46,741 nt of DNA from Myxococcales bacterium. GTDB lineage: Bacteria; Myxococcota; Myxococcia; Myxococcales; Myxococcaceae. The stretch's first letter is position 1; each line of letters begins with the position of its first letter. The notes under the pieces are model-generated. The model ran no database searches and had not been told where the DNA came from. It saw only the letters and a list, made by a program, of their open reading frames with translations. A program made the translations under genes and the position numbers. The stretch lies in contig PMBV01000398.1 in the NCBI GenBank assembly GCA_003153055.1, positions 1 to 46,741 of the forward strand. Reading direction: 5' to 3'. This document shows, one piece after another, positions 30,739 through 36,179 of this stretch.

Positions 30739-33700
30739 ATGGCCGACCCGCTGCTTGGTCCCCTCGACGTCACCCAGCTTCTCACCGGTAAGCGAATTCT
30801 CTTCGCCGGAGCGACAGGCTTCGTCGGCAAGGTCTCCTTGTCGATGCTGTTGCACCACTACGGCGAGGAGCTCGCCCACGTCTATGTCCTCGTGCGCCGG
30901 GGCAGCTCGAAAGACGCCACCACCCGCTTCTACGACAAGGTCGCCTCCAGCGAGCCCTTCCAGCCCCTGCGCGACAAGTACGGCGAGGCGGCGCTCCCCG
31001 ACTGGCTCCGGTCGAAGTGCACCATCCTCGATGGCGACATCACCGACCCCTGGCTGGGCGTCGACGAGCCCAAGGCCCGGGCGCTCAAGGGCGCCATCGA
31101 CGTGGTGGTGAACTGCGCCGGCCTGGTGAGCTTCAACCCGTCGCTCGAGGTGGGCCTCAACGTCAACACCCACGGCGTGAAGTACCTGGTCGAGGCCTGT
31201 GTCCACTGGGACGTGCCCCTGGTGCACATGTCGACGGCCTTCGTTGCCGGCAACCGCTCGGGCCTGGTCTTCGAAGACGAGGAAATCGTCGGCCACTTCC
31301 CCAAGCGCGGCGACCTCGATGGCCGCGACTTCTCCCTCGAGCAAGAGCTCGCCGACTGCGGGAAGATCGTCGCGCGGATCCGCGAGCAGGCCGACGACAA
31401 GGCGCTGGCCAGCGAGTTCCGCACCCGCGCCGTGGAGCGCCTCGAGAACGAGGGCCGCGACCCCAACGACGAGCGGTCGCTCCGCCTCGCCATCGGCCGG
31501 GAGCGCAAGCTGTGGGTCACCACCCACTTGGTGCAGTCGGGCATGGAGCGCGCCAAGCACTGGGGCTGGCCCAACACGTACACGTACACCAAGTCGCTGG
31601 GCGAGCAGGTCATCGCCTCGACGCCGGGCCTGCGCTACGCCATTCTCCGGCCGTCCATCGTCGAGAGCGCGATGAAGTTCCCCTTCCCCGGGTGGAACGA
31701 GGGCTTCACCACCTCGGCGCCCATCATCTACGCGGGCATGAAGGGCGAGCGCACGCTCCCGGCAGCCGACACCGCCATCCTCGACATGATTCCCGTCGAC
31801 ATGGTGGCCGGCGCCCTCATCGCCGTCGTCGCCCAGCAGCTGCGCACCAGCGAGCGCCGGGTGTACCAGTTGGCCTCGGGTGACACGGCGCCTTTCGCGG
31901 CCAGCCGCTCGGTCGAGCTGGTGGGCCTCTACAAGCGCCGCTGGGCCCGGCAGAAGGGCACTGGCAACGCCACCTGGCGCAACTTGAAGAGCCGCCTCGA
32001 GCCCACCGCGGTGAGCAAGACGGCCTTCGAGCTGACTGGCAGCCCACTCCTCGGGCGAGGGGCGAAGTGGCTGTCGAAGGCCATCGACGAGAACGCCCCC
32101 AAGTGGGGAGCCCCCCGGCTCACCGCGGCGCTGGCCCGGGCCCAGGAGACGCTCACCGAGGTGGCCGAGCAGGTCGACAGCGTCAACCTCATCGTCGACA
32201 TCTTCCTCCCGTTCCTCTGGGAGAACCGCTTCGTCTTCCGCTGCGACAACACCCGCTCTCTGTACGTCGACATGCCGGCGCACGACCGCGCCAAAATCCC
32301 CTGGACCCCCGAGTCCATCGACTGGCGCAGCTACTTCCTCGACGTGCACATCCCCGGCCTCGAGAAGTGGGTCTTCCCCGGCCTCGACGAAGAGACGGAG
32401 CGCCGCCGCACGGTGCACGCCTACCGCGACCTGCTCGAGATGTTCGACGCCACCATCCACGAGTGGCGGCACCGGGTGGCCTTCCGCATGTTCGACGGCG
32501 ACACCCTGACGCGCTTCACTTTCGGCGAGGTGCACCGCTACGCCAGCCGGGTGGCCAGCGCCCTCATCGCCCAGGGCGTGGTCCACGGCGACAAGGTGAT
32601 GCTCCTCTCCGAGAACCGCCCCGAGTGGGGCATCTCGTTCTTCGGAGTGCTCCGGGCCGGGGCCACCGTGGTGCCGGTCGACCACGAGCTCTCGGAGCAG
32701 GAAATCGTCAACATCGCCCGGCGCAGCGAGACCAAGGTGGCGGTGGTGTCCGAGAAGGTCATGGCGCGGCTGCCCGAGCTCCAGGCGGCCCTGGCCAAGG
32801 CTCAGCTCTCGACCCGGCTCGCGCTGGTGGCCGACGTGCTCTCGGGCGACCCCTCGAAGCCCGACGGCATCGGCCCGGTGAAGAAGTCGGCCTCCCCCGA
32901 CGACGTGGCCTCGCTCATCTTCACCAGCGGCACCACCGGTACGCCCAAGGGCGTGATGCTGTCTCATCGGAACTTCGCCGCGCTGGTGGCCAAGCTCGCG
33001 GGCACCTTCGACATCGGGGTGGGCGACGGCATTCTCTCGGTGCTCCCGCTGCACCACACCTTCGAGTTCTCGGCTGGGTTCTTGACCCCGTTCAGCCGCG
33101 GGGCCGAAATCGCCTACATCGACGAGCTGAGCGCCGACCGAATGAGCGAGGTGCTCTCAGCCGGCCACGTCACCGGAATCGTGGGCGTGCCGGCCCTGTG
33201 GCAGCTCTTCCACCGGAAAATCACCCAGGAGATGGCCGCTCGCCCCAAGCTGGTCGAGGAGCTGCTCAAGGGCCTCATGGGCATCAACGCCCAGCTCCGC
33301 GACAAACGAGACATCAACCTGGGCAAGCTGTTGTTCTGGCCGGTGCACAAGAAGTTCGGCGGCAACATTCGCTTCCTGGTGAGTGGCGGCTCGGCCCTGT
33401 CTGAAGACGTGCACAAGGCCTTCCACGCGCTGGGCTTCAAGATGGACGAGGGCTACGGGCTGACCGAGGCCGCGCCGGTGCTGACGGTGACCAAGGCCGA
33501 CAACAAGCGGCTCAAGGGCTCGGTGGGTCGCGCCTTGCCGGGCATCGAGCTCAAGATTCACCAGCCCGACGCCGAGGGCATCGGCGAGGTCACCGCCCGG
33601 GGCCCCAACGTGATGTCCGGCTACTTCCAAGACCGAGAGGCCACCGAGGCCGTGCTGAAGGACGGCTGGCTCTACACCGGAGACCTGGGCCGCCTCGACG

Positions 33701-35150: not shown

Positions 35151-36179
35151 ATGAGAATCCTCGTCACTGGAGCCACTGGCTTCCTCGGCTCGCACCTGGT
35201 GCCGCTGCTCCGCGCCGAGGGCCATCAGGTCTGCGCCCTGGGCCGCACCCGCCCGCCCGTCGCCTGGGGCCAGGGCGACAACCCAGTCACCTTCATCACC
35301 GCTGACCTGAAAGAGCGCGCCCTCGTGCAGCGTGCACTGGAGGGCGTCGAGGCCATCTACCACCTCGCTGGCATGGTGAGCTTCCGCAACGAAGACAGCC
35401 GGAAGATGTATGCCTTGCATGTCGACGCCACCCGAGACCTCTTGCGTGATGTCGATGCGTTGGGCACCAAGCCGCGCGTCATCTTGGTTTCCACCTCTGG
35501 CACCATCGCCGTCTCGAAGACGCAGCGGGTGGGCTCGGAGGCTGACGAGTATCCCATCGAGGTGGTGGGTCGGTGGCCGTACTACCTCTCGAAGATCTAC
35601 GAAGAGAAGCTGGCCCTCGAGTTTTGCCGAGCCCGCGGCATCCCGCTGGTGGTCCTCAACCCGTCGCTGCTCATGGGCCCGGGCGACGCGCGGCTCTCCT
35701 CCACCTGGACCGTGGTGAAGTTCCTCCAGAGAGACATCCCCGTGATGCCCGGAGGAGGCATGAGCTTCGTCGATGTGCGCGATGTAGCCGCCACGGCGGT
35801 GCAGGCCCTTCACCGTGGGGAGGTGTACGGCAGACACCTCATGGGCGTGAACATGTCGATGTCCGAGTTCTTCTCGCGGCTCGAGCGCCTCACTGGCGTG
35901 CCGGCTCCGCTCGTGAAGCTCCCAAAACAACTCACCATTCTGGGCGGCTACGCACTCGAAAAGCTGGCCGACTGGCGGGGCCTCAAGCCCTCGCTCGATC
36001 CACAAGAGGTCGAGGTGGGAGAGCACTGGTTCTGGTGTGACTCCTCCAAGTCCCAGCGGGAGCTCTCGTTTGAAGCCAGAGACCCCTATGAAACCCTTCA
36101 CGACACCGTGAAGTTTGTGCTCTCTCGGCTGCCGCCCAATGACCGCCCCGACCTCAAGGGTGCCCTGCTCACTCCCTGA
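35151..36179 (+). CDS. NAD-dependent epimerase / 3-beta-HSD-like SDR
   Basis: A 342-residue extended SDR. ATG 35151 is 2 bases after the fusion gene's stop, with AAAGGAGG 9 bases upstream inside that gene, so the two are certainly cotranscribed. NAD-binding VTGATGFLGSH is at residues 5-15, VSTSGT near 112, and YYLSK gives the YxxxK pair; NPSLLMGPGD follows. It probably reduces a keto or oxidises a hydroxy group on the product of the fusion enzyme. The SDR at 24047 is a distant paralogue on the other side of the inserted block. Confidence 0.92.
   Translation: MRILVTGATGFLGSHLVPLLRAEGHQVCALGRTRPPVAWGQGDNPVTFITADLKERALVQRALEGVEAIYHLAGMVSFRNEDSRKMYALHVDATRDLLRDVDALGTKPRVILVSTSGTIAVSKTQRVGSEADEYPIEVVGRWPYYLSKIYEEKLALEFCRARGIPLVVLNPSLLMGPGDARLSSTWTVVKFLQRDIPVMPGGGMSFVDVRDVAATAVQALHRGEVYGRHLMGVNMSMSEFFSRLERLTGVPAPLVKLPKQLTILGGYALEKLADWRGLKPSLDPQEVEVGEHWFWCDSSKSQRELSFEARDPYETLHDTVKFVLSRLPPNDRPDLKGALLTP

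Follow-up and report, generated by a model that had tools for sequence, protein, structure and literature searches.

Probable elbD-elbE genes of alkyl ether lipid biosynthesis in a myxobacterium, and ElbC as their candidate partner

The window analyzed here is a whole stretch of 46,741 nucleotides from a Myxococcales bacterium (contig PMBV01000398.1, GenBank assembly GCA_003153055.1), which carries on its forward strand a gene for a multidomain protein of 1469 amino acids (30739..35148) and a gene for an extended short-chain dehydrogenase/reductase (SDR) of 342 amino acids (35151..36179). We determined domains, motifs, orthology, gene neighbourhood and distribution computationally, and these data indicate that the pair very probably represents elbD-elbE, the myxobacterial genes of alkyl ether lipid biosynthesis. 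In Myxococcus xanthus, ElbD consists of a fatty acyl reductase (FAR), an acyl-CoA synthetase (ACS), an acyl carrier protein (ACP) and an acyltransferase (AGPAT/PlsC), and it is followed by the epimerase-type SDR ElbE (PMC9131029). When the Pfam domains of the window protein were compared with this published layout, we found the same order FAR-ACS-ACP-PlsC, with an epimerase-type SDR directly after it. The original prediction had described the architecture from the sequence, guessed at ether lipids and left open whether the Elb system or a different route was involved. The architecture, the intact motifs, the spacing of the SDR and the ether lipid guess all held, the last of these through the published ElbD-ElbE layout (PMC9131029) and orthology to the operon at locus L064. 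The question of the route is now answered as Elb, because the pair has the ElbD-ElbE layout and its first gene is orthologous to the elbD of a complete elbA-E operon, a gene that normally occurs once per genome.

This operon is found in the Myxococcus-like genome G029, where locus L064 comprises five genes in the order SDR-HAD-Lar_N-ElbD-SDR, the ElbD protein being FAR-ACS-ACP-PlsC; this is the order of elbA-E. The window ElbD shares 65% identity with the L064 protein over nearly its full length (L064 residues 4-1457), and the two ElbE proteins are 64% identical (residues 1-335). The L064 protein in turn is 85% identical to a protein of Myxococcus stipitatus, the nearest named Myxococcus among the 120 matches listed. 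MXAN_1528 is presumably the elbD gene of M. xanthus. MXAN1528 has been listed as KEGG FadD candidate (PMC4048283), the accession numbers of M. xanthus ElbD are ABF88003.1 (PMC11868695) and Q1DC43 (PMC8788747), and a FarA domain has been assigned to ElbD (PMC11948995). The elbA-E operon of M. xanthus is deposited as MIBiG BGC0000871 (Lorenzen et al. 2014, Nat Chem Biol 10:425, cited in PMC9426513), and the same four domains as above are described for elbD homologues of sponge symbionts (PMC9426513).

To define the distribution of ElbD, we searched the 59 genomes of the family of genome G002 and obtained matches at E<=1e-200 in 57 of them, one match per genome; therefore, there is no competing paralogue in this family. 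The two matches each in G019 and G062 are pieces of one gene, and G022 gave a partial match in the phylum search. In a quick ElbD tree of 43 rows, which has long branches elsewhere, the window protein falls into a clade of 11 rows with SH-aLRT 100, together with L014, L015, L105, L010, L038, L039, L025, L001, L003 and L106. Among the genomes searched, the nearest relatives of the window organism are mostly uncultured and Archangium- or Myxococcus-like.

The reading frame extends from the ATG at 30739 to the stop at 35148. A program-made open reading frame reaches farther back, to a TTG at 30097, but we place the start at ATG 30739, because the homologues measure 1448-1523 amino acids (best 120 of 3914) and full-length matches from other genomes start at residues 1-9 counted from this ATG. 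A homologue search with the 1469 amino acid protein retrieved 3914 matches at E<=0.001, so the four-domain protein is not a chance product, and judged by eye, all 120 homologues listed have the four main domains in common. We thus confirmed that the four-domain protein and its SDR are real. The N-terminal FAR Rossmann domain (NAD_binding_4, PF07993, E 3e-45) covers residues 24-359 (30808..31815) and contains GxxGxxG at residues 24-30 and the YxxxK pair Tyr281/Lys285; the solved fatty acyl-CoA reductase 7eoz matches it with E 1.3e-42. It is followed by a putative FAR C-terminal 'Sterile' region (PF03015, residues 474-546, 32158..32376, E 9e-7), which scores below the curated cut-off. The AMP-forming acyl ligase comprises AMP-binding (PF00501, residues 571-963, 32449..33627, E 3e-80) and AMP-binding_C (PF13193, residues 1014-1096, 33778..34026, E 6e-6), which ends with the A10 lysine Lys1096. 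The carrier domain (PP-binding, PF00550, residues 1130-1187, 34126..34299, E 1e-9) provides the phosphopantetheine serine Ser1161 (34219-34221), and the PlsC-type Acyltransferase domain (PF01553, residues 1254-1382, 34498..34884, E 4e-20) carries NHxxxxD with His1274/Asp1279 and FPEGTR. Among the best 25 of 110 NCBIfam matches, there was no ElbD-specific model; they were acyl-CoA ligases and similar proteins, all under their cut-offs.

Conservation of the catalytic motifs was followed in an alignment of 166 rows, which included the window protein, L064 and 164 proteins (P0003-P0166); P0003 is 100% identical to the window protein, so that this sequence is counted twice. It can be seen that Gly24, Gly27, Gly30, Tyr281 and Lys285 of the reductase, GYGLTE of the ligase, Ser1161 of the carrier and His1274 and Asp1279 of PlsC are invariant, which bears out the claim that the catalytic motifs are intact. 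The A10 lysine (Lys1096, 34024-34026) is kept in 162 rows, and the remaining four (L064, P0123, P0154, P0155) carry serine. Serine also replaces this lysine in L066 and L067, which group together with L064 in the ElbD tree; a serine at this position is odd for an active ligase.

The gene following elbD encodes the elbE orthologue (PF01370, E 6e-31), and its ATG at 35151 leaves a gap of 2 bases to the elbD stop at 35148, as originally reported. The nearest solved chains by sequence are the putative oxidoreductase 3wj7, an epimerase, a cinnamoyl-CoA reductase and a dihydroflavonol reductase. To explore whether this arrangement is conserved, we inspected 72 sequences (71 loci, with some genomes represented twice, and the window) and found that ElbE adjoins ElbD on the same strand in 55 of them, with -6 to 404 bases between the matches. 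The other 17 include seven in which the contig breaks off within elbD, seven single-domain look-alikes and three distant homologues (L018, L020, L023). The distant Nitrospirae homologues L020 and L023 match the ligase-to-PlsC part only and are without FAR domain, in agreement with a remark on ElbD-like proteins lacking FAR1 (PMC9131029).

Several known systems resemble ElbD in part. In carboxylic acid reductases, a single chain holds the adenylation, carrier and NADPH-dependent reductase domains, in the order ligase-carrier-reductase. The original contrast with these enzymes was correct as regards the domain order, but this order is not new, since it is the published ElbD layout. In the window protein, the reductase is N-terminal and FAR-type and the PlsC domain comes after the carrier; a carboxylic acid reductase variant was rejected on the basis of this domain order and the orthology to ElbD. 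Aas-like acyltransferases share the ligase-plus-PlsC logic with the window ElbD and are not known to carry a FAR domain. The ligase domain matches NF006386 and NF005291 (acyl-[ACP]-phospholipid O-acyltransferase) with E 2e-61 and 5e-49, but the scores (208 and 167 bits) stay below the cut-offs (1221 and 1349). A further system is the MXAN_1676-1674 operon (AGPS; FAR-acyltransferase; SDR), a minor ether lipid route of M. xanthus (PMC9131029). In G029, about 0.2 Mb from L064, a FAD-oxidase, a FAR-acyltransferase and an SDR follow each other in the same way, so that a FAR domain and a PlsC-type acyltransferase again stand next to an SDR; unlike in ElbD, we found no ligase or carrier domain here, and a FAD-dependent AGPS-like protein is present.

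For the function of the pair, the published data on M. xanthus are instructive. Alkyl and vinyl ether lipids drop strongly when elbD is lost and are restored by elbD, and inactivation of elbE lowers ether lipids. In vitro, ElbD is active in its ACS and ACP domains; elbD mutants lack iso-15:0 aldehyde, and CarF makes the vinyl bond at a later step (PMC9131029). In a working model, the ligase domain would activate a fatty acid with ATP and load the internal carrier at its Ser1161 phosphopantetheine. The N-terminal reductase would use NAD(P)H to reduce the resulting acyl thioester, giving an aldehyde or alcohol, the PlsC domain would acylate a glycerol-phosphate or triose-phosphate backbone or a lyso-ether, and ElbE would reduce a carbonyl intermediate. 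The product would be an alkyl ether lipid, probably formed without AGPS. We infer in this model the order of the steps, the acyl acceptor, the ElbE substrate and the formation of the C-O-C bond. None of the ElbD and ElbE domains accounts for the C-O-C step, and the literature consulted does not establish formation of this bond by ElbD.

Several observations weigh against the assignment and its mechanistic reading. Our comparison was made with L064 ElbD, so that orthology to M. xanthus ElbD runs through the Myxococcus-like G029, and the count of one gene per genome refers to 59 relatives of the window organism, its own genome being outside this set. ElbD homologues occur in many phyla, and Pontiella carries one although ether lipids were not detected there (PMC11868695). 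With purified ElbD, acyltransferase activity was not observed; FAR activity was not seen either, and fatty alcohol was not detected, as described in PMC9131029. Close orthologues (76-100% identity) of the G029 AGPS are confined to 6 of the 59 family genomes, which favours a route without AGPS; against it, at a threshold of E<=1e-50, 19 further genomes contain relatives of 30-34% identity, which could include functional AGPS, and the other 34 have no relative at this threshold. That the window gene is an ElbD paralogue with another product, such as a wax ester, a fatty alcohol or a secreted lipid, appears extremely improbable to us. FAR proteins do serve wax ester synthesis elsewhere (PMC11948995), and the distant Myxococcota G185-G188 each hold two separate ElbD-like matches with 37-42% identity, but the closest family searched has one gene per genome, the window protein is placed in a supported ElbD clade and the ElbE neighbour is conserved. 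Support for wax ester formation did not turn up in our analysis, which involved no test aimed at wax esters. The second ElbD-like matches of G185-G188 may be paralogues with other products.

Another scenario concerns the ether bond. Here, ElbD would only supply acyl-dihydroxyacetone phosphate (PlsC) and fatty alcohol (FAR), and a separate AGPS would make the ether, as in animals. The ElbD domains would indeed provide exactly the two substrates of AGPS, and the 30-34% FAD-oxidase relatives of the 19 further genomes fit this scenario. FAD-oxidase_C proteins were detected in all 11 genomes tested, yet 11 of the 14 control genomes have them too. An AGPS homologue exists in M. xanthus, but disruption of this gene (MXAN_1676) led to a minor reduction only (PMC9131029), and close orthologues (at least 76% identity) in 6 of 59 family genomes compare with ElbD in 57 of 59. 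We consider a separate AGPS unlikely. We regard it as highly improbable that the ether arises by reduction of an ester, a Ger/PlsA-like scheme in which a completed acyl-glycerol would be the substrate of ElbD and ElbE. Ger turns the sn-1 ester into an ether in other bacteria, and ElbD or Ger are the two ether lipid routes described (PMC11150832). The Ger reports involved anaerobic expression (PMC11150832), and Pfam found no domain in the pair besides those named.

The neighbourhood of the window pair differs from the M. xanthus operon. Directly upstream of elbD, elbB and elbC are absent, and neither ElbB nor ElbC gave a match at E<=1e-6 anywhere in the window. Such linkage is not required by the literature, since PMC9131029 allows for elbDE lying apart from elbB and elbC. 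We located elbC relative to elbD in the 57 ElbD-bearing family genomes: the two genes are neighbours (<200 bases) in 30 of them, are separated by 1.4 and 8.1 kb in two others and by 107 kb in a further one, and lie on different contigs in 24, some of these contigs being short. We detected elbC in all 17 relatives tested besides G029 and ElbC in 58 of the 59 family genomes (G029 included). The split of elbDE from elbB and elbC looks derived, because the more distant loci L013, L016 and L021 keep elbB-C-D-E together. The spot upstream of elbD where linked genomes have elbC is occupied by two genes on the reverse strand, an HTH antitoxin-like gene (29886-30242, PF01381) and a small gene named HigB-like by eye (30226-30519). 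A further extended SDR (PF01370/PF01073) is encoded at 24026-25093 on the forward strand and is 34% identical to ElbA of L064; its match at 24062-24967 is the sole ElbA-like match in the window. About 8 kb upstream of elbD, on the reverse strand (20007-22787), there are MlaE-MlaD-ABC ATPase lipid-transport-like genes (PF02405, PF02470, PF00005).

ElbC, which is described as a protein of unknown function (PMC9131029), is encoded outside the window. In L064 (12055-13665, reverse strand), it matches Lar_N (PF09861) with E 1.3e-37, and among solved structures 9q2u (1e-34) and 9q3j (4e-31) match it best. These are presumably the structures of PMC12611868. That study concerns a LarA homologue without lactate racemization and with unknown substrate, the gene neighbours of which include triose-phosphate enzymes and the ligand of which was tentatively modelled as phosphorylated aldose (PMC12611868). 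In an alignment of 30 ElbC rows, corresponding to 29 distinct sequences since the query is present twice, His134, Lys209 and His225 are invariant. According to the alignment with 9q2u and 9q3j and the numbering of PMC12611868, these three residues would include the lysine binding the nickel-pincer nucleotide (NPN), the Ni-ligand histidine and the first catalytic histidine of the LarA family. The spacing of 16 between the lysine and the Ni ligand, as read from the alignment, is the same as in PMC12611868. The second catalytic histidine (His174 of LarA) is absent from the ElbC stretch, with Asn198 and Asn200 invariant nearby; in this respect, ElbC resembles the single-histidine subfamily of PMC12611868. 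Lar_N proteins are present in 58 of 59 family genomes, and inspection by eye indicated exactly one, in the ElbC locus, in 50 of these 58. According to PMC11770544, 80-100% of the species of Myxococcota and of a few other groups have LarA homologues, and across all taxa a species usually has one; this paper does not contain the word lipid.

Of 195 Myxococcota genomes searched, 139 contain ElbD and 138 ElbC. The two proteins occur together in 138 genomes, ElbD is without ElbC in one (G084, where the match sits at the end of a contig), no genome has only ElbC, and 56 have neither. Taken together, we tentatively suggest that ElbC may be a nickel-pincer, LarA-like enzyme with a single catalytic histidine, on which ElbD would obligatorily depend in the aerobic ether lipid synthesis of bacteria, with a role in backbone or hydride chemistry; we consider this possible but still rather doubtful. 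Our data show the homology, the conserved residues and the co-inheritance with ElbD, whereas nickel binding and chemistry are speculation. ElbC would either make or correct the triose/glycerol backbone, or it would deliver the hydride by which a hemiacetal of aldehyde and glycerol becomes the alkyl ether, with nickel-hydride chemistry in place of AGPS. LarC-type proteins (PF01969), the presence of which is a weak sign of NPN use by ElbC, were found in 56 of 59 family genomes. In the control genomes, PF01969 occurs in 6 of 14 and Lar_N in 2 of 14, and only 2 of those 6 have Lar_N, so that LarC is not specific to LarA users; these controls leave our estimate for ElbC unchanged, because LarC is counted as indirect support only. 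A number of points speak against such a function of ElbC. LarC was missed in the two ElbC-bearing genomes G008 and G011, and the Fisher value for co-occurrence of ElbD and ElbC (1.5e-48) is overstated, since kinship is ignored. At the thresholds of the phylum search (1e-100 for ElbD, 1e-80 for ElbC), weaker LarA relatives in ElbD-free genomes are uncounted. The effect of an elbB insertion has been ascribed to polarity, and the text consulted mentions no elbC mutant (PMC9131029). Full-text searches, which left most subscription papers outside, listed no paper whose title, abstract or consulted passages connect ether lipids with ElbC or with LarA homologues, and the 2020 LarA superfamily paper gave no hit for Myxo, acyl or three subgroup numbers.

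The gene pair of the window extends the known Elb system to another myxobacterium. ElbD is near-universal in the family searched and close orthologues of the Myxococcus AGPS are rare, so that formation of the ether bond in the Elb system is a real question. The co-occurrence of ElbC with ElbD gives this question a specific candidate, because ElbC may account for the unexplained step in which the ether is formed, and this can be tested. If this function of ElbC is true, the Elb route would form the ether bond by nickel-hydride chemistry, or ElbC would tend the backbone.

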